From Picocystis sp. L7 (taxonomy: Eukaryota; Chlorophyta; Picocystophyceae; Picocystales; Picocystaceae), in the NCBI GenBank assembly GCA_020975725.1, contig QXJR01000008.1:310001-374000 (forward strand): a stretch of DNA of 64,000 nucleotides. Direction: 5' to 3'. Position numbers and translations under genes: made by a program. The notes under the pieces are model-generated. The model was given only the letters and a program-made list of their open reading frames with translations, searched no databases and was not told the DNA's origin. This document shows positions 25,064 to 63,103 of this stretch, piece after piece (the stretch's first letter is position 1; each line of letters begins with the position of its first letter).

Positions 25064-25379
25064 TGTTGAAAGGATCTGCTGTTTAACCGCAAGGTTAACA
25101 GGCAGCGTTGGAGGACCTGGGTTCGTGAAGGTCCTTGGGAGTTCGGAGCACGGAGGTGCACGGAGGAGCGAGGTTGGAAAGAGTGTGTGGCATGCATTCA
25201 AGGCGTGGCCCCTTGGGCCCTAATAGCCGCCACAATGCCTACGTGGTATTGTGGATAGGGTATCCTATCCACAGCCGCCGCCGAACGTGCGGCTGTCCTG
25301 GTCGGAAGGGACGACCTGCACGACCAGTCCCATAGAGAATAAACTCCATAGAACTGGTCCTGTACTTAACTTTTCAATA
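25064..25379 (-). repeat. 3' LTR of the first copia element
   Basis: 316 bases. In element orientation it starts TATTG and ends CAACA, a near-perfect inverted pair of ends. Same sequence as 29783-30098 by eye. Confidence 0.93.
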
Positions 25380-28300
25380 CTCTCCCTCAGGACCTGTTTC
25401 ATTGCTTGTTAACTCAGGTAACTGCACAAGTCCAATCTGCTTAACACTGGCACCAAATTTCTGAACACTGGTGGGTTTTGTGAGGAAATCTGCCAACATT
25501 TCTGTTGTTGGGCAATATTTGAACTGCACCTCACGTCTCATAATCCTCTCACGGACGAAGTGGTGAGCAATGTCAATATGTTTTGTCCGCTGGATGGACT
25601 TAACATCATTCAGCATCTTGATGCAGGCCTGGTTGTCACACTTCATGTTAACAGTGTGAATTTTGCCCCTGGAGTTAAGTCCGTTAATTAACCTCTTCAG
25701 CCAGAGGGCTTCTTTGACTGCTGCTGCTGCTGCTTGGTACTCTGCCTCTGCTGTGGAGGTAGATACGGTCTTCTGCATTTTGCTCTGCCAAGAGATTAAA
25801 CTCCCATTCAGGAAGAATAGGTATCCTGTCCTGGATTTCCTTGTTAACTTGTCTGCTCCATAGTCTGCATCACAGTAACCAGTGAGGTTAAAGATATCAA
25901 TATCTGCATCGAGATCTTCTGAACTGTCATCGATACGATTTCCAAGAACCAGGCCCAGGTCCATTGTGCCTCTCAAGTACTTGAGCACTGACTTTGCTGC
26001 ATTCATGTGCTCCACACTTGGCTTGTCCATGAATCTTGACAAATGTGACACTGCATGACACAAATCTGGCCTGGTGGTGGTGGCCAAGTAGAGTAGTGAG
26101 CCCATGAGCACTTGGTAGGATTGTTGAGGGGCTGCAGGTTCATTCTCTAGTGCAGTAAAGTGGTATTCCAGAGGTACCTGCTTAACCCTGCAGTTTTCCA
26201 TGTTGAACTGCTTAATTAACTGCCTTATCTTCTCAGGCTCACTGAGTGTGAGGGTCCTGTTTTTTCTGTCCCTGTGAACCACCATGCCACAGAAGAAACT
26301 CACAGGTCCTAGGTCTCTGGCCTGGAATCTCTTGCAGATGCTCTCAATGACTTCTTCAATCATATGGATATCTTCTGCTGCAAGGAGTATGTCATCCACA
26401 TAGATGCACAGGATGCACTCCTTGCCTGTTTCTTCGTTAACTTTCTGTAAAATAGTGTCCTCCACTGGGTTAACTACGAATCCCAGCTCTGTAGTTAACA
26501 TGTTGATGAGGTGGAGGAACCAGAGTCTTGGAGCCTGTTTCAGGCCATACAAACTCTTGTTGAGTTTGAGAGCCAGATGGCTGTTTCCATCTAATTCTTT
26601 CCCTTTGAGTCCATCAGGTATCTGGATGTAGATAGGTTCATCCAATTCTGCATTTAAGAAGGCAGTTTTGATGTCCACCTGCCTGATTTCATAGTCCTTC
26701 AAGGCTGCATAAGTTAAGTAAACTCGCTGGGTTACCTTACCAGAGGTGGGGGCAAACACCTCCTGGTAGTCCAAACCCTCACGTTGCTCGAAGCCACGCA
26801 CGCACAGGCGGGCTTTGTAGCGCTCCACGTCGCCACCACCGTCGCGTTTCACCTTGAAGACCCACGTGGTGGTGAGGGCCTTGCGTGCTGGAGGAAGCTC
26901 GGTGAGCGTCCAGGTCTCGTTGGCCACCAGCGAGGTAAGTTCTTCGTGGATGGCTTCTTTCCAGAGGTCGGCGTCCGATCTTCGCATTGCGTTTGCGAAG
27001 CCTGAGAATTCGTCGCTGACCATCCAATCGTCCTTGCAGGTGGTCTTCAAAGCTTTGCTGGAGCGAGGACGCAGGTTGTACCCATGCGTTGGGTTTGCTG
27101 GAGGTGCTGGACTGGCTGCTGGATTGGATGCTGGAGGTGAGGCTGGAGCCTGCAGCTGCATTGCTTGCTGGATGCCATGTGGAGATGGTGAAGAAGGTGC
27201 TTGAACATGCTGAGCACCTTCTCCATCATCTAGGATGCCTGCTGGATTGTCGTTTTCGCTGCTGCTGGACTGCTGAAGGCGTTGCAGGATTGCCGGAGTA
27301 GATTCTGGATTGCCCGTAGTTTGGGCAATGGCTTGGTTGGGTGGTGAAGAAGGTACTTGGCTTTGCTGAGCTCCTCCTTCATCACCTACATAACCAGGTT
27401 GAACAGGTGGAACCTGCTGGAGGTTTGCTGGTGGTTGCCGGCGAATGGACTGCTCGCTGCCGAAAGTTTGTGGAAATTCTGCACCTGCAGAATACACGGG
27501 ACTCCTCTCCCCGTTTGGTGATCCCATAAGGTCCAAAGCGCTTGGATCCTGTGGAATCACTGAACCATCTGGACCGTAACTGGAGCGGAGTTCGGAGAGC
27601 TGAAGCTGCGGAGGCTCAGGGAAGAGTTCAGGGAGGACCTGACCTTCCAAATCTTGCTGACTTTGATTTGCTGCAGGTCCAGGAGTGCTCTCCACAAACT
27701 CCACATTTCTGCTGAGCACAATTTGGTCCTTTACAAGGACACGGTAAGTTGAGCTGTTTTCATAGCCCAAAAATGTTCCCTCGACTGACTTTGGTCCGAA
27801 CTTTCCAATGCGTTTTTCTGCAGGTACGAGCACCCAAGCCTGACAACCGAATGTTCGCAGGTTGTCTAGGCTTGGTTGCTTGTTGGTCAGCAATTCAATT
27901 GGGCATTTTCCTTCTACTGATGCCTTCACGGGCAGTCGGTTTCGAAGGTAGTTGGCACATCGGATGGCCTCTCCCCAGAAGGTACGAGGCAACTTGGAGG
28001 ACAGCAGCAACGCACGCGCACTTTCGTTGAGTGTGCGGTGCAATCGTTCTGCTGCATTTTGCTGTGGTGTATACCCAGCAGTTGTTTCATGGGCTATGCC
28101 CTTTGATTGTAAGAATTTTTTGAGTTCAGCATTCACAAACTCTGAACCTTGATCCGTTCGCACGGCTTTCACCGTCTGACCTGGGGAAACCTTTTCAAAG
28201 GTGTGTATCCCTTCCATGAGTGCACCTACCGCACTCGATTTGTTCGGCAGCAAGTACACCTGACTTGCTTTGCTGCCTTGGTCATAGATGGAGAGGTAAT

Positions 28301-29771
28301 ATCTGTGACCAGATATACTTTCTACCTCCATGGGACCTACCAGGTCAGCATACAAAAGGTTAAGTGGGGCATATTTGTATCCACTGGGTTTGTATGGTTT
28401 ACTGCACTGTTTGGCCTGTATACAAGGGGTACAGGGGCAATCCAGTTTGTGGGGTAGACCCAAGAGCCGTAGTTTTTCCTCGCTGGCATGCCCCAGTCGT
28501 TCGTGCCAGAGTTGCGCTGGGGCAGAAAGGGCGAAAACGTTTCCGGGGCACAGGGGGGCGTCCAGGACCCTTCCTGCCAAGGAGATTCGACAGTGACCCT
28601 TCGAAAACTGGAAATCGGCACCGGCTTCCATGGCTGCCTTGACCGAGATGAGGTTGTGCGCCAAACCAGGGATGAACAAGACATTCAGCAGTCGAATGTT
28701 TGTTCCATCTGGAGTTGTAATATGAACTGTCCCCTTGAATCGACTCGACAGCACAGTCCCGTCCGCGGTCATGATGTCTGAGATATGAAGGTCCGTGTTC
28801 CCTTGTTCAAGGAGACCCAGATCTCCTGTCATGTGATAAGAGGCTCCTGAATCAATGATCCAGGGCTGAGACGGACCTCCTTCAATTTTGCTGGTGGTCT
28901 TGAGCATATTGCTGGCCTGATTGACCATAGAAAAGGCCATTCCATCGCAAGGGCTGTTGGTATCCAGGGGCGGTGTGTCGTTGAGACGGTCATTGGCTGT
29001 GGTGGTCAACAAACTTGCTGCCTTCTCCCTTGCCCGTTTCTCTTGAAGTTTGTGGCAGTTGTCAACTGTGTGACCTTGCCTCTTGCAGTACTTGCAGAAA
29101 ATCACCCTGTCCAGTGGTGAGGAGGTCTGTGAGCCACTATAGAGGCTCTTTGACCTGGAATTATGCAACTCATGCCGAATGAGTGCGTTTCGCACGAGGT
29201 CCACGGTAGGTTCGATGCCGTTGTTCTCCAGGACAGTGCACACAATATTGTAGCTTGGTGGAAGCCCAGAAAGAATGGCAATGGCCACAGCGGAGTCCGT
29301 AACGGGATTGCCGGTCTCCCGCAACATGTTGGCCAACTCCATGGCCCGGTTCACGTAGGACTCGATGTCCTCCACATCAAGTTTCCGAAGGTTGTGAAAT
29401 TGCTTTTGAAGATAGATGGTTTGCTGAATAGACTTTTGTCTATAGAGATGCTGAAGCTTCGCCCACACTTGATGTGATGTTTCGCAATCGATCACATGTG
29501 GAAGGAGCTTGTTTGACACTCGAAGCAAAATTTTTGCTTTTGCTTTGGAAACCGAACTGAATTTCAATTTGTCTTGGTCGGTGAATTGAGTGGTGTCATC
29601 AGTGGAGTACACCGGTTCACTTTGAGTAACATCCCAAAGGTCAGAAATGACCAAGCTTGATTGCATGCGGACGGACCATGTGGTCCAATTGTGAGAGTCC
29701 AATTCTGGGACTCCGAAGTTGTCCACCATTGAGTTTGACATGGCTTCTGATCTCTCTTGGTGAGGCTTCAA
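25374..29771 (-). CDS. copia Gag-Pol polyprotein
   Basis: Single frame of about 1,465 residues. From the N-terminus come a Gag region of the UBN2 type (~1-220), a zinc knuckle (~225-240), a protease (~305), a GAG-pre-integrase and integrase core (~420-680), a Pro/Gln-rich linker (~700-930), reverse transcriptase (~950-1200) with the YVDD motif, and RNase H (~1290-1420). Gag and Pol are fused without a visible recoding site, as in many copia elements. The frame ends just inside the 3' LTR. It belongs to the copia family because integrase precedes reverse transcriptase. Confidence 0.95.
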   Translation of the reverse strand: MKPHQERSEAMSNSMVDNFGVPELDSHNWTTWSVRMQSSLVISDLWDVTQSEPVYSTDDTTQFTDQDKLKFSSVSKAKAKILLRVSNKLLPHVIDCETSHQVWAKLQHLYRQKSIQQTIYLQKQFHNLRKLDVEDIESYVNRAMELANMLRETGNPVTDSAVAIAILSGLPPSYNIVCTVLENNGIEPTVDLVRNALIRHELHNSRSKSLYSGSQTSSPLDRVIFCKYCKRQGHTVDNCHKLQEKRAREKAASLLTTTANDRLNDTPPLDTNSPCDGMAFSMVNQASNMLKTTSKIEGGPSQPWIIDSGASYHMTGDLGLLEQGNTDLHISDIMTADGTVLSSRFKGTVHITTPDGTNIRLLNVLFIPGLAHNLISVKAAMEAGADFQFSKGHCRISLAGRVLDAPLCPGNVFALSAPAQLWHERLGHASEEKLRLLGLPHKLDCPCTPCIQAKQCSKPYKPSGYKYAPLNLLYADLVGPMEVESISGHRYYLSIYDQGSKASQVYLLPNKSSAVGALMEGIHTFEKVSPGQTVKAVRTDQGSEFVNAELKKFLQSKGIAHETTAGYTPQQNAAERLHRTLNESARALLLSSKLPRTFWGEAIRCANYLRNRLPVKASVEGKCPIELLTNKQPSLDNLRTFGCQAWVLVPAEKRIGKFGPKSVEGTFLGYENSSTYRVLVKDQIVLSRNVEFVESTPGPAANQSQQDLEGQVLPELFPEPPQLQLSELRSSYGPDGSVIPQDPSALDLMGSPNGERSPVYSAGAEFPQTFGSEQSIRRQPPANLQQVPPVQPGYVGDEGGAQQSQVPSSPPNQAIAQTTGNPESTPAILQRLQQSSSSENDNPAGILDDGEGAQHVQAPSSPSPHGIQQAMQLQAPASPPASNPAASPAPPANPTHGYNLRPRSSKALKTTCKDDWMVSDEFSGFANAMRRSDADLWKEAIHEELTSLVANETWTLTELPPARKALTTTWVFKVKRDGGGDVERYKARLCVRGFEQREGLDYQEVFAPTSGKVTQRVYLTYAALKDYEIRQVDIKTAFLNAELDEPIYIQIPDGLKGKELDGNSHLALKLNKSLYGLKQAPRLWFLHLINMLTTELGFVVNPVEDTILQKVNEETGKECILCIYVDDILLAAEDIHMIEEVIESICKRFQARDLGPVSFFCGMVVHRDRKNRTLTLSEPEKIRQLIKQFNMENCRVKQVPLEYHFTALENEPAAPQQSYQVLMGSLLYLATTTRPDLCHAVSHLSRFMDKPSVEHMNAAKSVLKYLRGTMDLGLVLGNRIDDSSEDLDADIDIFNLTGYCDADYGADKLTRKSRTGYLFFLNGSLISWQSKMQKTVSTSTAEAEYQAAAAAVKEALWLKRLINGLNSRGKIHTVNMKCDNQACIKMLNDVKSIQRTKHIDIAHHFVRERIMRREVQFKYCPTTEMLADFLTKPTSVQKFGASVKQIGLVQLPELTSNETGPEGEY

Positions 29772-30103: not shown

Positions 30104-30978
30104 ACCTCCAGTTCGGCGATACAGGGGCGGTTTCATGACGGATGACGAGGAACCACGCGTAGATGGACGTGGTGGATGGGCCAGGCTCATGTCGGGCGAT
30201 CAGCGTCTTTCATGCTGAATCTGGATGCCCCCTTCTCCGAAAGAAGTGTCCAGTGAAAGGGCAAGAGCCCAAGTGCGCCCTGTCAGAACCCTGGGGTAAA
30301 GAGGCAAGGCGTGCAGGGAGCGAATGGCAGGAAATGACATATCGTTCGAGGCAAGCACTGCGCCAGTCGCACGACACTCTATGTATGGAGTTCGAGGAAC
30401 CAGGAGCCGTGCTTGTCTTCCCGGACGCTAGTCGAGGGGCGTTTAGTCGGTGTAGAACTTTCTCAAGATCGATGGCCACCTGTCCATCTTCCATGCCACT
30501 TTGCGCTCCCTTTTGAGGAATCGGGGGATCCGTTTCACCGTTCAAATGACCTGGGAAATCACGTGACGTGACCGGACAGGTCTCGGTCATGGTTGTCTTC
30601 GAACGGATCCGTGTTCCTCGGATCCATCGTCCCAGGCTGGTCCCAGATTCCCCAGCGAAGCAAGATCTCGATAGGAGGTCCGAACCTATCGATTGAAACG
30701 GAAGATCTCGAACCGGGTTTTCTCGGCAGGTCCCCCGAACCGGCGTTTCCTCGGCACCACCAACCCTTGGGATTCTCGACGGTCCGTTTGTTCTGCGTGG
30801 GATATCCACATTTCGTGCGGTAGCTGCAGAGGATCGCCCCTCTGTTTTGGGGGGAGGCACCGTTCGCGCCACCGAATTCTCCGATAACAGGTCGACGAGA
30901 CGCGACCGGTGTCGACCGGCATCACAAAAGGGACCAGCTTCTCGTCGCGACGTCGGAACGGGAGGCTGCCTTGTATCC
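30104..30978. other. Upstream region of the AP2 gene
   Basis: About 875 bases, GC-rich toward the gene. Before the copia insertion it would have joined the short region upstream of the stress-protein gene. Open frames here do not resemble proteins. Confidence 0.4.
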
Positions 30979-32118
30979 ATGGCGGATGTGAGAGCGGAAT
31001 GCCAACGACCAGGAGTGTCAGAAGCGCGTTCGGAATCTTCGGAGGGGAAACGGCCGACGACAGATGCGACAGAACAGAACAAGGCCATGGGGGAGGGCAC
31101 TGCGTTCCCGGGAAACTTTGCACAAGCAATGGCTTTGAGTGCTTTGTTCGGAGGTTTCTCGCCGTCGGGAATGCCGCATCCCTTCGTCCCTTTCCTATCT
31201 AGCCAGATGCCGTGGAATGGAGCAGACTATTCGGGGTCTCCTAGGCAGCACAACACAAACAGTACCATATTGGCACCAGTAGCGAAACCTGCAGTGCCAG
31301 CCAACCGACAAGAATCAAAGGGCTGTCTGACCATGGGATTCAATGAGGGCCTACGCGAAAAGAAAGGATCACTCTTCGTGCCATACAGGCAGGGGGAGAA
31401 AAGAAAACTTCCGTCCGATGAACCACCACAAGATGGTAATAAACCCAAGAGCATGCGTGGCACTTCCAAATACAGAGGCGTCACAAGGCATAGGCGTTCA
31501 GGTCGCTGGGAGGCACATATTTGGGTTCCTGAAACAAACAGGCAACTTTACCTTGGTGGATATAAGCTAGAGGAAGATGCTGCAACCGCCTACGATATTG
31601 TTGCCATCAAGTGCAAAGGTATACACTCCGCGAAGGCAAACTTTCCCAAGACAAACTACAATAACTTACTTCAGCTGATGCAGAAAGTTTCATTGGAGGA
31701 AATCATCATGGCCGTGAGGAGGCAAAGTGAGGGATTCTCGACTTGCAAAAACCCACTGCTGCCTGGAAAGTACGTTGGAGTAAGGCGCGCGAAAGACCAT
31801 TTTGAGGCGTTCCTATCTCTACCTGGCAGCCCAGAAATTTATTTAGGTCAGTTCAAAACGGAAGAAGCAGCAGCTAGAGCCGTAGACAGATCCCTCATAC
31901 GCATAAAGGGAAACAACGCGCAGATAAACTTCAGTATAGAGGAGTACCCGGAGGAGATGGCTGAATATCTGAGAAGGAAAGATGCCAACAATTCGCTGAA
32001 GCCCGAAGAAAAGGAGCAGCCATCGAATACTCTACGACCTGTTGCCACTCAAACATGTGAAACGACAGAAGTTCAACCAGGGATAGATCCAATCAAGACC
32101 CAGGCAAAAGGCGCCTAA
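30979..32118 (+). CDS. AP2/ERF transcription factor with two AP2 domains
   Basis: About 379 residues. AP2 domain 1 lies at ~163-225 (SKYRGVTRHRRSGRWEAHIW, then LYLGGYKLEEDAATAYD). AP2 domain 2 lies at ~264-320 (GKYVGVRRAK, then IYLGQFKTEEAAARAVD). A linker of about 40 residues separates them, as in the AP2/AINTEGUMENTA group of plants and algae. The first repeat is the better conserved; the second lacks several DNA-contact residues of the YRG element. The N-terminus (1-160) is low-complexity with Ser/Pro and basic patches. The start at 30979 has a good context (ATCCATGG); upstream in-frame sequence is promoter-like. Target genes unknown. Confidence 0.88.
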   Translation: MADVRAECQRPGVSEARSESSEGKRPTTDATEQNKAMGEGTAFPGNFAQAMALSALFGGFSPSGMPHPFVPFLSSQMPWNGADYSGSPRQHNTNSTILAPVAKPAVPANRQESKGCLTMGFNEGLREKKGSLFVPYRQGEKRKLPSDEPPQDGNKPKSMRGTSKYRGVTRHRRSGRWEAHIWVPETNRQLYLGGYKLEEDAATAYDIVAIKCKGIHSAKANFPKTNYNNLLQLMQKVSLEEIIMAVRRQSEGFSTCKNPLLPGKYVGVRRAKDHFEAFLSLPGSPEIYLGQFKTEEAAARAVDRSLIRIKGNNAQINFSIEEYPEEMAEYLRRKDANNSLKPEEKEQPSNTLRPVATQTCETTEVQPGIDPIKTQAKGA

Positions 32119-47641: not shown

Positions 47642-48477
47642 CGACCGTGCTTCACTTTATATCCAGTGTGCGTTCCAGCATTCAAACCACACTTTTCCCT
47701 GATTTTTCTTGCTCCTAGCGTCCTCTTTGACCCTCGCTCTCGGAGTGAAAAGTGACACATGCGAGTGCACATGTCGACCGTCGGCATCCATCCATCCTTC
47801 TGAGAGAGGCTGGGAGGGACCACCTCCCCCCGTCCTTCGGGAGTTTCTTCTCTCCGACCTTGGAGGACGGTCCAAGGTGGTGGGCTAGCGGTGAAAGAGG
47901 CAAGGGGACAATGCCAAGGAGCATGACCATCCCAAGGCGATGGAAGAGGCGAACGAACGGTGGAAAGTGGCATCTACCGGATGAGTCATGCGGTTGGAAG
48001 TGGCCGTTGTTTTCTTGTTCCCACGGACCGGTTTCCTTATCGACTTGAGTTGAGTTATCATCGACGCCAAGTGAGTAATTTGATCTTGGTGAATTCCAAC
48101 ACATCAGGGTGATGCCCGCAAAGGTAAAAACGGCTGATCGTGAAGTCAAGGATGTTCCTCGGTTGGATCCATAGAGGACCGACCAATAGCACTTGACTCG
48201 TTCCTCAAAGTACGAGGAAGATGGACCGGGCGTGTCGTTGCTTGCCTATGCCATCCACAAACACGCCCCTCCATTCGCGCACTCTCCTTGAATCGACTTG
48301 CTCCGACTCCGAAGCAAACCATCCAATTCTGGCGCGAAGTTCTACTAATGATGTCCATCGTCCAATGGCCAATGCAAGACCAAGTTGGCGTCCAAAAGTG
48401 GATCCCATCCGTTTGTCTCGGAAGGGAATGGCCCCTCTCGTTTAAGTCATCAAGTTAACACAGAAAATGCACCGACG
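47642..48477. other. Divergent upstream region, channel / murF
   Basis: About 835 bases between two divergent genes. Mixed composition with short chance frames. I see nothing specific. Confidence 0.4.
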
Positions 48478-49977
48478 ATGCGGCGATGGATTCGACCCGC
48501 GCGCGCTGCTTGCGGTGCGCCTGAGAGGCGACGGAAAGCTCTACGTACGCACGCATGGAAGTGGAAGGACTCGGAAAACGGCGCGTGTATCGATGCAGAA
48601 AGGATGGCCCGATGGTGTGGAGGGGAACTGGTGAAACATGGTCCGTGTGGTGCAGTGCACACCGACACCAGGAGCTTGCGAAAGGGAGATTGGTTTCTTG
48701 CGCTCTCAGGTGATCGCTTCGATGGGCACGACTTTCTTGAGGTTGCTTCAGAATGTGGATGTGCGGGCGCGGTCGCAAAACACGTGCCTGAAGGCTGGGA
48801 GAGAGGATTCATTCGCGTGGAGGATGGGCTGGTTGCTCTACAAGCACTGGCCAAAAATCTCCGGGAGCACTTTGAAGGTCCAGTCGTATGCATTACTGGC
48901 AGCTGTGGCAAGACCACTGCAAAGGAAATGACAACATTGGTGTTGCAAGCAGGACTCGGGACAGTCCATCAAACGAAGGGAAACCTGAACAATCATGTAG
49001 GCGTGCCGCTGAGCATTCTATCCACACCTGCAGCTGCCGATGCAATGGTTTTAGAGCTAGGTATGAGTGCAGCAGGAGAGATTTCTCTTCTTACTGGTCT
49101 TGCCCAGCCAAGTGTAAGAGTAGTCACCAACGTTGGCCATGCACACATTGCATCTTTTACAGATGGGTTGGATGGCGTGGCGAAAGCGAAGGCTGAAATA
49201 CTCGAAGGGTTGAGAGAAAGCGACGTAGTTGTCCTGAATGCTGATGATGAGAGAGTTGCAATCATGGGCAAAGCTGCATGCAAACCCCAGGTCAAATCCT
49301 TCGGAACAGGTAAAGGTGCCGATATCCGCATACTAGAGGTTGCCCCGGCAGGTAACCATGGGCTTCACACCCACATTAGACTTCTGGAGACCTGCTCAGA
49401 CAAGGTATCTGTGATAAAACTTCGATGCCCTGGAAAGCATCTAGCTATCAATGCTGCCCTGGCTGTTGCTGTTGGAACAGCACTTTCTGTCACGTTTGAG
49501 CAATGCTGCTTTGCTCTGCAGGGCTACCAATCTTTAGGCATGCGCATGAAGGCCGAGGCAATGAAGGATGGCAATTGTCTGCTTCTGGATGATAGCTACA
49601 ATGCCAATCCTTTGAGCACTGCCAATGCCCTGGAGGTTCTTGCTAACGTGTCACATCCCGGCCGACGCATTGTTGCATTGGGGGACATGTTGGAACTGGG
49701 AGACACAGCATACGTAGAGCACGAAAAAATTCTTCACATATGCCTGAGTGGCCCTTATGACGTACTTGCAATGTTAGGACCTCAATACAAGGCTGCTGCA
49801 CAGATTGCCTGCAAATATCCTCACGGAAAGATCTTGATCTTTGCTGACACGCCTGAAGCCCTTGCAAGCCAACTGCTCGAAATTGCAAAGGATGGGGATG
49901 TGTTCCTTGTCAAGGGCAGTAGGTCCATGAGAATGGACCTGGTTGCACACAAGCTCCGTGGGATGAAGAAGCTTTGA
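48478..49977 (+). CDS. murF: MurF: UDP-MurNAc-tripeptide D-Ala-D-Ala ligase, probably plastid
   Basis: Mur ligase of about 499 residues that adds D-Ala-D-Ala to the UDP-MurNAc-tripeptide, the last cytoplasmic step of the peptidoglycan precursor. The P-loop is ITGSCGKTTAKEM (139-151). It is followed by TKGNLNNHVGVPLSIL, the MurF signature, LELGMSAAGEI, NVGHAHI, and DDSYNANPLS in the C-terminal domain. The N-terminal domain has HTDTRSLRKGDWFLALSGDRFDGH-type sequence (split here by domain, residues 61-84). Residues 1-30 are basic and poor in acids, suggesting plastid import. In green algae, mosses and glaucophytes such genes serve plastid division. It lies tail to tail with the homeodomain-SIS gene, 124 bases apart. 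Confidence 0.93.
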   Translation: MRRWIRPARAACGAPERRRKALRTHAWKWKDSENGACIDAERMARWCGGELVKHGPCGAVHTDTRSLRKGDWFLALSGDRFDGHDFLEVASECGCAGAVAKHVPEGWERGFIRVEDGLVALQALAKNLREHFEGPVVCITGSCGKTTAKEMTTLVLQAGLGTVHQTKGNLNNHVGVPLSILSTPAAADAMVLELGMSAAGEISLLTGLAQPSVRVVTNVGHAHIASFTDGLDGVAKAKAEILEGLRESDVVVLNADDERVAIMGKAACKPQVKSFGTGKGADIRILEVAPAGNHGLHTHIRLLETCSDKVSVIKLRCPGKHLAINAALAVAVGTALSVTFEQCCFALQGYQSLGMRMKAEAMKDGNCLLLDDSYNANPLSTANALEVLANVSHPGRRIVALGDMLELGDTAYVEHEKILHICLSGPYDVLAMLGPQYKAAAQIACKYPHGKILIFADTPEALASQLLEIAKDGDVFLVKGSRSMRMDLVAHKLRGMKKL

Positions 49978-50101: not shown

Positions 50102-51172
50102 TCACTCCAGATTGGTATGTCTCTGGACCATATCAATGGACTGAACCCCCCACTGTTGCTGAAGAAGGGAGACAACACAATCCAGGAGCACCCACAAGCT
50201 GATTTCATACGAACTGCCCATCATCAGTGGGCTGTCAATCTCAGGACACTCTACTTGAAACGATGATTCCATGCTATCCCTCATACCAAGATGGCTTCCT
50301 CCACTATGGTGCACATCAGGCGGTAGTGTCTGCGCAGCACCCAATCGAACCACTGTATCTGCCCAGTCAATTTGATTGCTGGAGGCGGTGAGTAGGAGTA
50401 TGTGCCCTCCATTCCTACGCGCTTGCTCTGTTAGAGCAACAACAGTTGAAAAATACCCAGGCCCTGCACTGACGACCAGTAGATCTCCTGCGGCTACAGG
50501 TGGACAGTTCATGTCTCCTACAACACTGACTTGTTTGCCAAGGTGGTACAATCTCATAGCAAACGAGCGTACCACCAAGCCTTCCCTTCCCACTCCATAG
50601 CAGAATACTCTTCTGGCTCCATGGATCAGCCTCATCAGGTGGCAGACGTCTTCGTCTGCCACAGATCCGACCACATCGCAAACCTGCTCGCACACGGCGT
50701 ACGCTCTGGCGTAGACCTCGCCTTCACGAACTTGCAGTGGAGCGGCGATCTCCGAATCGCGGAGTCTCTTCCTCCTACCCGTTCCAGACGTGAGGGGAGC
50801 ATTTGTACGTCGCACCTCTCCCACGCCCATCTCTCGCATTGCATTCTGTCCACGCCTGGCTGTCTTCTTCTTCGCACGCGCCATTCGGTTCTTCATCCAC
50901 ACGCTGACCTGCGTTTCGGTGGCTTCTCCCGCCGCTTGCACGGCTACCAGCAGCTCCGGCGTAGCCTTGACGTGTCCAGCGGAGAAGAACCCTTCCAGTA
51001 TGGTCATCTGTGCCTGTGTGGGCTTCCATCGCGGCCTACACATCCGTCCCGACACTCCCATCGTCAGCTCGTCTCCGTTCTCGTCTCTTCCCTCGTCGGC
51101 TTTTCCCGCCACGCACCTCTTGGCCGCATCCGCGAGCCCTTCGGAGGGCGAGGCCAGCGCGTGTTCCTCCAT
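50102..51172 (-). CDS. Homeodomain-SIS fusion protein, candidate sugar-phosphate-sensing regulator
   Basis: One continuous frame of 356 residues. Residues ~47-105 form a homeodomain: RPRWKPTQAQMTILEGFF (47-64) resembles the WOX-type first helix, and TETQVSVWMKNRMARAKKK (85-103) is the recognition helix with the W-x-x-N core (W92, N95; Met for the usual Phe). A basic linker follows (TGRRKRLR). Residues ~165-345 form a SIS domain like 6-phospho-3-hexuloisomerase: GARRVFCYGVGREGL (185-199), FAMRLYHLGKQVSVVGDM (204-221), GDLLVVSAGPGYFSTVV (229-245) and PLMMGSSYEISLWVLL (315-330). The usual SGSGET sugar-phosphate loop is replaced by AGPGYF, so catalysis may be lost. Start at 51172 begins an acidic leader. 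I know no described homeodomain-SIS protein. Confidence 0.82.
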   Translation of the reverse strand: MEEHALASPSEGLADAAKRCVAGKADEGRDENGDELTMGVSGRMCRPRWKPTQAQMTILEGFFSAGHVKATPELLVAVQAAGEATETQVSVWMKNRMARAKKKTARRGQNAMREMGVGEVRRTNAPLTSGTGRRKRLRDSEIAAPLQVREGEVYARAYAVCEQVCDVVGSVADEDVCHLMRLIHGARRVFCYGVGREGLVVRSFAMRLYHLGKQVSVVGDMNCPPVAAGDLLVVSAGPGYFSTVVALTEQARRNGGHILLLTASSNQIDWADTVVRLGAAQTLPPDVHHSGGSHLGMRDSMESSFQVECPEIDSPLMMGSSYEISLWVLLDCVVSLLQQQWGVQSIDMVQRHTNLE

Positions 51173-59100: not shown

Positions 59101-62100
59101 TACGAGATAATGGAAGACCAAGTTGCAAGGAGCAAGATTGACAAAGGCGACATCCCAATACTTGTGCAGGGCAACTGGAACTTGTGGAAAGGATCGGTAT
59201 TGCTAGCGTTGGAAGAGGCAGGAGGCGATGACGTGTTGAACGATAAAACACCCTACGATGCGATGGGTGCCGAGACTCGGCAAAGGTCGAAGATGGTAAG
59301 AGCGGCGATGTTGAGAAGGATCAACAAGGAAGAAAGAACGCTCCTTCAACATGATGTGTCACTCATGGCAAAGAATATATGGGACCGACTTCATGAAAGT
59401 TATGGCATCCACAATGCGGCCACCTCGCTACGCATACTCAAAAGGTACCGAACGTTGAAGAAAACCTCAAATGAAACAGTTATGCAATATTACACAAGGG
59501 CATTGTCATTGGCTAGTGAGCTTAGAGAAAGCGGCGAGAACATCTCAGAGACAGACATGGTTGCTACGATTATGAATGGACTACCGAGAGAATACAACTT
59601 GGTGAAGACAACGATCGATGCAAGTGGCGTGATGCCAGCGTTAGATCGCTTGAAGATGATTCTAATCAACGAGGAAAGCAACATGGTAGGAGATGAGAAC
59701 ATGGTGGAGCAAGCAATTATGCATTGTGATCAAAGGGAGGTAAGTCCTCAACCATCATTCGCAAGACTCGGGCATGCCAAGCAAAGAAAGAAGTTCAATG
59801 AATAATGCTACAAATGTGGCAAGAGAGGTCACATGGCCCGCCATTGCCGAGAGACGATCATTGAAAGCAAGCAAGGCCAAAGCCTACGAGTAAGCAAGCA
59901 AAACAGTCCATGTATTGGAGACTGGATTTTGGATAGCGGCGCGTCGGACCATGACAGGCGACGCATCAAAGTTTGATGAGGGAAGTTTGAAGCAAGCTTC
60001 AGGTCACATTGTGTTGGCGGATGGCCGGAGCACGGCCATCGTCGGCAAAGGAAAGGTCACGATCGAGGTCGGAAAGATGAAAATGCAACTAAGAGATGTC
60101 TTATATGTTCCAACAGTTGCATTCAACTTGCTATCAGCTGTAAAAGTTGGGAGTCAAACAGGAGCAAATATTATCATGGGAAATAACGGAACCTGCGCTT
60201 TACAGAAAGAACAAGACATCATTGAGTTGCATACACAATCTGATGGGGTGTATGCCCTTCGAGCAGATGCAAACTTATGGCACACACGCTTGGGTCATGC
60301 AAGTGCAGATACTCTCAAGCAAGTGGGACTACCATGCGATTTAAAGACATGTGAAGCGTGTGTTAAGGCAAAGTTAAATCGAAAACCGTATTCATCGGAC
60401 GTAACGGTCAAAAGAGCTTTGGATAGAATATCAATGGACGTGCTTGGGCCGGTTACTCCTGAAGCAGTGGGAGGCCAAAGCTATGCACTTGTAGCCATCG
60501 ATGCCGCAACAAAATTTAGCTTTGCTACTCTACTCCCAAACAAAGGACAAGCAACAGATGCCGCGAAGCAAGCCATTTCATGGTTTGAACAGCTTTCAGG
60601 TGAACGTGTGAAGTGCATTCGCACGGACTGTGGCAAAGAGTTTCTTCAAGAACAAATGAGAGAATGGTTGACCAACAGAGGGATCAACCACGAGACGACT
60701 GCTGGTTATGAACCTCAACAAAATGGTCAAGCAGAACGTTTGAATCGTACCTTGATGGAAGGAACACGGGCATTGTTGGAGGACACAAAGCTTCCTACAA
60801 CACTATGGGCCGAAGCTATGAGGACTATCAATTATGTGAGGAACTTAAAACCATGCAACATCAATGGAAGGCGGAGCAAGAGTCCGTTAGAACTACTACC
60901 AAGAAAACAACCGGATTACCAACAATTGAAGAGATGGGGATGCAAAGCCTTAGTACACATCCCACAAGACCGACGAGTTGGTAAACTCGCCTCACAGGCC
61001 GAGCCTGCCATATTCATTGGATACTCAAACACTACCACGTACAGGTTCTTGGTAAGGAAGAAAGTTGTGACATCACGCACAGCGGTATTCTTTGAAGACC
61101 AAATTGGAGAGTTGGATCATGACGCACATAGTGGTACTAAGCCTGAATTGCTCATGGAGCCTAGCCCACTACCTCAGACGGTTGAACATGTGGACACCTA
61201 CCTTGATACGACGCCAAGCGAATCTTGTGTGAAAACCACATCATCATCAAGAGAGAAGAGTGAAACGAACAGGGCGGCAATGAACGACATGATGGACAAC
61301 GATGGGCACAGTGCGACCCTTCCCATAATGGATGATGTGCACGGTCCTCCTAGAGATACTATGACAGGAGAAAATTGTGAGATCAATGATGACGACCATA
61401 ATTCAACAAGGAGTGAGACAGAGAATGATCCTGTGAAGAGGTACAACCTCCGTGAAAGAAAACCTATGGATTATAAGTAGATTGCTACCAAAGGCTTGCA
61501 TGTGAACATGGCACCACTTCCAGATGAATTCTCAGGTAATGATGAAGCGATGGATCGTCCCGACAAGGCAATGTGGAAACAAGCGATTGAAGATGAAAAA
61601 CGCGCGTTATTGGAGAATGAGACTTACGAAGGAAGAAACCTACCACAAGGCAGAAAAGCACTTCAAACTAAGTGGGTGTTCAAGGTTAAACGAGACAATC
61701 TTGGAAACGTGGAACGCTACCGTGCCCGCCTAGTAGTGAAGGGATATCAACAACGTGCTGGCATAGATTACACTGACATATTCTCACCAGTTGTCTCTAA
61801 GCCAACGGTAAGATTGTTTTTGACAATTGCAGCAATCAAAGACTATGACAACCATCAGCTAGACATCAAGGCAGCATTCCTACATGCAGACTTGGGAGAG
61901 GAAATATACATGGCTATCCCCGAAGGTATTGATGAAGCTCCAGGGAAAGTATACAAACTTAAGAAGAGCCTCTATGGGCTAAAGCAGGCACCTCGAGAAT
62001 GGAACAAGGAACTAATCTCTTTCCTTTCCATGGACCTTGAGTGTAAGTGTGCAAGTGTGGACGAAACTCTACTGATATGTAGAAAGGAGAATGAAGTGTG

Positions 62101-63103
62101 CTATGTGTGCGTATATGTGGACGATATACTCTTGGCGTCCAACTCACGAGACTTGGAGCAAAAACTAATCAAGAAAATATGCAAGAGATTTCAGGTTGGC
62201 TCAAAAGGAGAAATCAATACATTCTGTGGAATGCAAGTGAAAAGAGATAGGTCGAAGAAAATACTCCACCTAAGTGAACCATTGAAAATTGAGAGAATGA
62301 TTGAAGAATATGGAATGTGTGAAGCTAAAGAGACAAAGGTGCCAATATGTGAGAACATATGTGAAGAAGATGGTGAAAGTGATCCTACGATCACATCGAA
62401 ATATCAACAACTGGTTGGCCAGTTGCTTTACCTATCGACAACAGTACGCCCGGACCTTGGACATGCAGCGGCAGTATTATCAAGACACATGAGCAAACCA
62501 AGTAAGAGACATTGAGTTATTGCCAAGGATGTGATTCGGTATTTGAAAGGTACTAAACATCATGGTCTTTATCTGGGAAATCTGCAGCAAGCAAGTGACA
62601 TATCGTTGGAAGGATATTGTGATGCAGATTACGCAACTGACAAGGAAACAAGACGTTCAAGAACTGGATACTTATTCTTGGTGAATTGAAGCCTCATTGA
62701 CTGGAGAAGCCAACTTCTATCTACCGTGGCAACAAGTACAGCTGAGGCTGAGTACATGTCCCTCGCGGAGTGTGTGAAGAAGGCTTTATGTTTGAGAACA
62801 CTACTTGCAGAGTTGCTTGGAGATGAAGCCAAACCTGTGCCGATTTACTGCGATAATCAACCGGCACTCCACATGGCTAAAGACTTGAATTGTGTGTCGA
62901 GGACAAAGCATATCGATGTAAGGCATCACTTTGTTAGAGAACGTGGACTCAGAGGAGAAATGGTATACGTTTACTGTCCATCCGAGGACATGTTAGCAGA
63001 TTACTTAACGAAGGTTCTACGGCCCGAGAAGTTCCAAGAACTTATGAACAAACTTGGCGTACAGCAAATGTGATGAACGATGACTTCTGTGGTTGGGTGG
63101 GAG

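Follow-up and report, generated by a model that had tools for sequence, protein, structure and literature searches.

A homeodomain-SIS fusion protein as a candidate sugar-phosphate-responsive transcription factor of green algae

A homeodomain joined to a PHI-like SIS domain

In the green alga Picocystis sp. L7, we analyzed a 64,000-nucleotide stretch of contig QXJR01000008.1 (hereafter the window), in which a single minus-strand gene (51172..50102) encodes a homeodomain followed by an SIS domain resembling 6-phospho-3-hexuloisomerase (PHI, HxlB). We named this homeodomain-SIS fusion protein of green algae HD-SIS. Our favored reading, to which we give a probability of about 0.6, is that HD-SIS is a sugar-phosphate-responsive homeodomain transcription factor. 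Four observations underlie it: the fusion itself, its conservation, the identities of the two domains, and the fact that 13 of 17 fusions have lost SIS residues otherwise fixed in the family. The DNA binding, nuclear location, oligomeric state, ligand and direction of regulation of HD-SIS are what we infer.

The HD-SIS gene comprises 356 codons plus a stop, with a predicted ATG at 51172, and requires no intron. The minus-strand frame stays open 5' of this ATG, within a 450-codon frame, and the start codon is a prediction; the plus-strand frame across 50102-51172 is interrupted by stops. An initial annotation of the sequence had placed an uninterrupted 356-codon frame here, with correct coordinates and no mention of the strand. 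In the AlphaFold2 model, 10-residue means of the confidence score pLDDT are mostly at least 88 in the homeodomain and the SIS domain, and low values are found at residues 1-40, 111-140 and 281-310.

The homeodomain is related to WOX proteins

The homeodomain (PF00046) spans residues 46-105 (50858..51037, minus strand), with an R48-W49 arm and a third helix containing W92, K94 and N95. The Pfam Homeodomain model scored 21.0 bits on the 356-residue protein (residues 46-102), just below the cut-off of 22.9, and 24.0 bits, above this cut-off, in the genome search. AlphaFold2 predicted helices at residues 53-64, 72-81 and 86-112, giving the three-helix fold of a homeodomain with the characteristic W48 and N51 in helix 3, and the top Foldseek match was the STENOFOLIA homeodomain (E 0.0062). 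The W92/N95 core and basic tail agree with the initial annotation. Across 10 aligned fusion homeodomains, 23 of 63 columns are invariant, and the W, K, N and R of helix 3 and the RW arm are conserved in all ten.

The genome search returned 11 homeodomain matches; among them, L005 is identified as a WOX by its PDB matches (STENOFOLIA, 4.9e-12; WUSCHEL, 1.6e-10). A profile made from the ten fusion homeodomains scored 37.5 bits on L005, 30.0 on bicoid, 25.0 on STENOFOLIA and 21.5 on WUSCHEL, while the next homeodomain of the same genome after L005 reached 12.2 bits. Since L005 scores best of the genome's homeodomains, the nearest own-genome kin of the fusion homeodomain is a WOX. The WOX pattern RWxPTxxQ is present in the arm and helix 1, as RWKPTQAQ, and the RW-x-P arm and helix 1 Q are common to both groups. 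In contrast, WOX proteins have WFQN where the fusions have W[ML]KNR, and the long helix-2 region is missing from the fusions: the WOX insertion is absent, leaving this region about 4 residues shorter than in L005, WUSCHEL and STENOFOLIA. Bicoid, which outscores STENOFOLIA and WUSCHEL with the fusion profile, shares the K at position 50. Judging from these scores and motifs, the fusion homeodomain is best called WOX-related rather than a WOX.

Several other homeodomain frames were seen in this genome. The WOX homeodomain of L005 lies at G000:C1:49653-49835, and a 199-codon frame (L008, G000:C28:344852-344992) contains two divergent tandem homeodomains recognized by eye. L010 (G000:C1:716984) and L011 (G000:C2:21365) are identical 437-codon TALE-type homeodomain frames on separate contigs, representing either a recent duplication or an assembly duplicate.

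The SIS half belongs to a PHI-related subfamily

The SIS domain covers residues 150-356 (50105..50725, minus strand) and was identified by PF01380, TIGR03127 and PDB sequence and fold matches. The Pfam SIS score was 28.6 bits against a cut-off of 25 (residues 183-266), the AlphaFold2 model shows an SIS fold across residues 152-350, and the best sequence and fold match in the PDB was PHI. The PHI-like SIS domain of the initial annotation was therefore recovered, here with a span of about 150-356. The protein nevertheless differs from PHI itself: TIGR03127 scored 127.9 bits, under its cut-off of 160, PHI is not fused to a homeodomain, and the SGSGET phosphate loop of PHI is SAGPGY in the window protein, where the loop SAGPGYF (residues 235-241; 50450..50470, minus strand) replaces SGSGETK in the alignment. 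A title and abstract search of the open-access literature found no paper on the PHI active site, and passages on GmhA (PMC5705639) gave no guide to where the catalytic residues lie.

The SIS half shares its motifs with free-standing AGPG-loop SIS proteins of bacteria and streptophytes, which carry GREGL, GPG and RHTNLE and belong to the same subfamily but, unlike the fusions, are without a homeodomain. In the window protein, GREGL occupies residues 195-199 (50576..50590, minus strand), with no position varying among the 148 free-standing relatives, and comparison of conserved motifs places RHTNLE at the C-terminus (residues 351-356; 50105..50122, minus strand). The Arabidopsis SIS protein AT5G52190, which we assume to belong to this AGPG subfamily, is listed as a bacteria-to-plant transfer (PMC11131428).

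A PHI acting in the ribulose monophosphate (RuMP) pathway was considered and set aside, because its partner enzyme, hexulose-6-phosphate synthase, was not seen in a genome search that is blind to introns; this search gave one strong PF00215 match, which is UMPS-like, and two below the cut-off. Elsewhere in the genome, a frame of more than 1000 codons (L018, G000:C22, ~60228-60362), with a start that looks glutamine amidotransferase-like by eye, matched SIS weakly, at 17.1 bits, which is under the cut-off.

The fusion is conserved in green algae

A search over about 5.8 billion proteins gave 61 matches and a profile search gave 12; the final collection contained 181 proteins. The homeodomain motif W[LM]KNR was found in 20 of these 181, and all 20 also carry the SIS motif REGL, located 80 to 121 residues downstream. 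Carriers include Ostreobium quekettii (P0007), Myrmecia bisecta (P0009), Bryopsis sp. KO-2023 (P0014) and Trebouxia spp. C0004, C0006 and C0010 (P0016, P0017 and P0064). Identity to the window protein was 98% for P0002, 81% for P0003, which is without the first homeodomain residues, and about 62% for P0004; P0065 is a partial sequence. Compared with P0004, 47 of 60 residues are identical in the homeodomain and 90 of 133 in the SIS core, but only 19 of 45 in the linker. Because 20 of 181 proteins combine both halves and the domains are better conserved than the linker relative to P0004, the association goes beyond chance: the homeodomain-SIS fusion is real and old. The initial annotation had asked whether both domains occur in one protein across databases, and would have counted absence of the fusion from close relatives, together with signs of an assembly error, against it; the same order was found in all 20 proteins.

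The linker (residues 106-149; 50726..50857, minus strand) is variable, and residues 106-150 align without gaps to P0003 and P0004. It contains a basic motif, RRKRLR (residues 133-138; 50759..50776, minus strand), that resembles a nuclear localization signal. A [KR]RxR motif is present in the linker of 16 of the 20 fusions, a count made without a chance control, and could be a nuclear signal. When a 21-member set (17 fusions and 4 SIS-only proteins) was scanned at E 0.01, 8 members matched Pfam SIS and 13 matched Homeodomain; weak detection by Pfam SIS alone may explain why this architecture went unnoticed.

Family-fixed SIS residues are lost in most fusions

To define fixed residues, 149 free-standing proteins were gathered, of which P0046 was dropped for lacking the REGL motif, leaving 148; P0019, P0024, P0031, P0036, P0051, P0061 and P0074 were excluded from this count. 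The set was picked by similarity, and its invariance is thus partly a product of selection. Within it, none of the 148 proteins departs from S235, G237, P238 or G239, and 144 have A236. The AGPGYF loop in place of SGSGET had been taken in the initial annotation to imply sensing. This argument fails: the G-P-G is kept in all 148, and a loop common to free-standing relatives is no mark of sensing.

A different pattern emerged from the 20 positions invariant across all 148 free-standing relatives, which were followed in 17 of the 20 fusions (P0002, P0017 and P0065 being left out). All 20 are intact in the window protein, P0003, P0004 and P0009, which may therefore still be catalytically active. 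They are likewise intact in the SIS-only proteins P0018, P0021, P0037 and P0052, in those of Mesostigma and Closterium, and in a chytrid entry. The other 13 fusions are without 3 to 9 of them. M206 and G239 are each kept in 4 of the 17, R207 in 6, and H210 and H352 each in 13; none of the 17 has lost R196, E197, G237, P238, E323 or N354. Read from the alignment, these losses fit a protein in which selection for catalysis has relaxed and the binding site has been retained, and they are the best support for sensing. Weighing against this reading, the degraded fusions fall in two neighboring branches of the tree, which implies few independent loss events.

Origin of the fusion

A tree of 62 rows included 18 of the 20 fusions (P0017 and P0065 were left out). 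A branch with support 93/88 separates the fusions and five SIS-only rows from bacteria, two streptophyte algae, one chytrid entry and unassigned rows, and the SIS halves of the fusions adjoin bacterial free-standing proteins. The five SIS-only rows were called chlorophyte, namely Chlorella sorokiniana P0052 and Ostreobium P0020, together with P0018, P0021 and P0037, assigned by tree position. In the free tree, fusions and SIS-only rows are interspersed and 3 label changes are required. A constrained clade of the 18 fusions plus P0020, which was added only after inspection of the tree, was not rejected (p-AU 0.476; the unconstrained tree was 0.16 log units better). A single origin is thus compatible with the tree test, with homeodomain loss in Chlorella-type algae as a possibility. 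P0020, which resembles the fusions at positions 206, 207 and 239, probably represents an incomplete gene model of a fusion protein.

We also evaluated the gene environment of the free-standing bacterial proteins at the best 80 of at least 587 confirmed loci, mostly Alphaproteobacteria by title. Ten neighbor types were sought, each named from one representative, the ATPase, solute-binding and permease types being broad. Sugar-type ABC transport genes were found in the flank at 55 of the 80 loci (42 with stricter matching), a catabolic enzyme gene of the sought types at 35 (stricter, 30), both at 28 (stricter, 22) and a SorC/DeoR-type regulator at 15 (stricter, 14). None of the ten types was found at 16 loci (stricter, 26).

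Tentatively, and at somewhat less than even odds, we propose that a WOX-like homeodomain joined a sugar-phosphate domain of bacterial origin at an early stage of green algal evolution. This would have created a one-component metabolite-sensing family linking carbon metabolism directly to transcription, convergent with bacterial RpiR, with enzyme residues lost stepwise in later lineages.

Proposed mechanism and alternative explanations

In the proposed mechanism, helix 3 (K50/N51 type) of the WOX-related homeodomain would mediate DNA binding, and the PHI-like SIS domain at the C-terminus would form a dimer or tetramer. A small sugar phosphate would occupy the SIS pocket; that it is probably a ketose phosphate is a guess by analogy, from the relation to PHI and the bacterial gene neighborhoods. 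Ligand binding would then change how the paired homeodomains are spaced or how tightly they bind DNA, and target genes would follow carbohydrate status.

HD-SIS could instead be a trigger enzyme: its SIS half would remain catalytically active as a sugar-phosphate isomerase, and the protein would regulate genes as well, as a reporter of flux and not of concentration. The four fusions with intact fixed residues, and the ABC transport and catabolic enzyme genes near the bacterial relatives, argue for this explanation, but R207 is gone in 11 and H352 in 4 of the 17 fusions and the intron-blind search saw no PHI partner enzyme; we consider it unlikely. The drift of fixed residues in 13 of 17 fusions would also suit an SIS half acting as a ligand-free dimerization scaffold that sets homeodomain spacing, SIS domains being known to oligomerize. 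We find this more doubtful still, as the six residues kept in every fusion seem to exceed what a scaffold needs.

The homeodomain might, on the other hand, be vestigial or protein-binding and HD-SIS an enzyme rather than a transcription factor. Its Pfam scores straddle the threshold and F49 is replaced, but the invariance of the helix 3 residues and the RW arm in all ten aligned homeodomains makes this improbable. Least credible is a gene-model or assembly artefact fusing two genes: certain public gene models in the family are incomplete (P0065 and, probably, P0020), whereas 20 proteins from several sources share the same order and motif spacing and the linker aligns without gaps to P0003 and P0004, so that we give this explanation hardly any weight.

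Neighboring genes in the window

A MurF-like Mur ligase frame (48385..49977, plus strand; Pfam Mur_ligase_M 4.7e-35, Mur_ligase_C 1.3e-18) is convergent with the HD-SIS gene, their 3' ends being about 125 bases apart. It suggests peptidoglycan-type enzymes in this alga and is not claimed as part of the HD-SIS system. A link between the two genes was considered, as MurR senses a peptidoglycan sugar, and nothing was seen that speaks for or against it. Copia-like retrotransposon frames lie at 25374-29771 (minus strand), open over 1465 codons, and at 59915-62515 (plus strand), recognized by Pfam except for 61496-62515, assigned by eye only. A further frame (30847-32118, plus strand) encodes an AP2 DNA-binding domain (Pfam 1.5e-11) with a second, weaker repeat seen by eye.

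Relation to known regulators and significance

The bacterial comparison group consisted of the RpiR/MurR/HexR/NanR transcription factors. Like RpiR/MurR regulators, HD-SIS has a C-terminal SIS domain after a DNA-binding domain. These regulators have an N-terminal RpiR helix-turn-helix, whereas HD-SIS has a homeodomain, with no RpiR helix-turn-helix in the Pfam scan; NF008590 scored 25.5 bits on the window protein against 355, the match being confined to the SIS part. Since the RpiR DNA-binding domain is absent, the best reading by analogy is that HD-SIS would work like a bacterial RpiR/MurR regulator and yet is no member. Of the RpiR-like, sugar-phosphate-reading algal transcription factor proposed initially, the domain order stands, while the loop argument does not.

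In plants, the HD-ZIP III/IV homeodomain-START factors set a precedent, combining a homeodomain with a domain that binds small molecules. These differ in having a START lipid domain and a leucine zipper; no START domain was found in the Pfam scan of the window protein at E up to 1. No report of a homeodomain-SIS protein was found in the open-access literature, most subscription journals being outside this scope. Chlorophyte proteins from Codium and Trebouxia are listed as 'WOX' in a survey of that family (PMC6788696). The source organisms of these listed proteins are kin of HD-SIS carriers, and green algal homeodomain surveys may have filed HD-SIS-type proteins elsewhere.

Bacteria commonly use transcription factors that sense sugar phosphates directly. 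Carbon signaling to plant genes is usually ascribed to kinases and hexokinase. HD-SIS is a testable candidate for a shorter carbon-to-gene route in green algae and, if this is true, would show a route from a metabolic enzyme to the sensor of a regulator.
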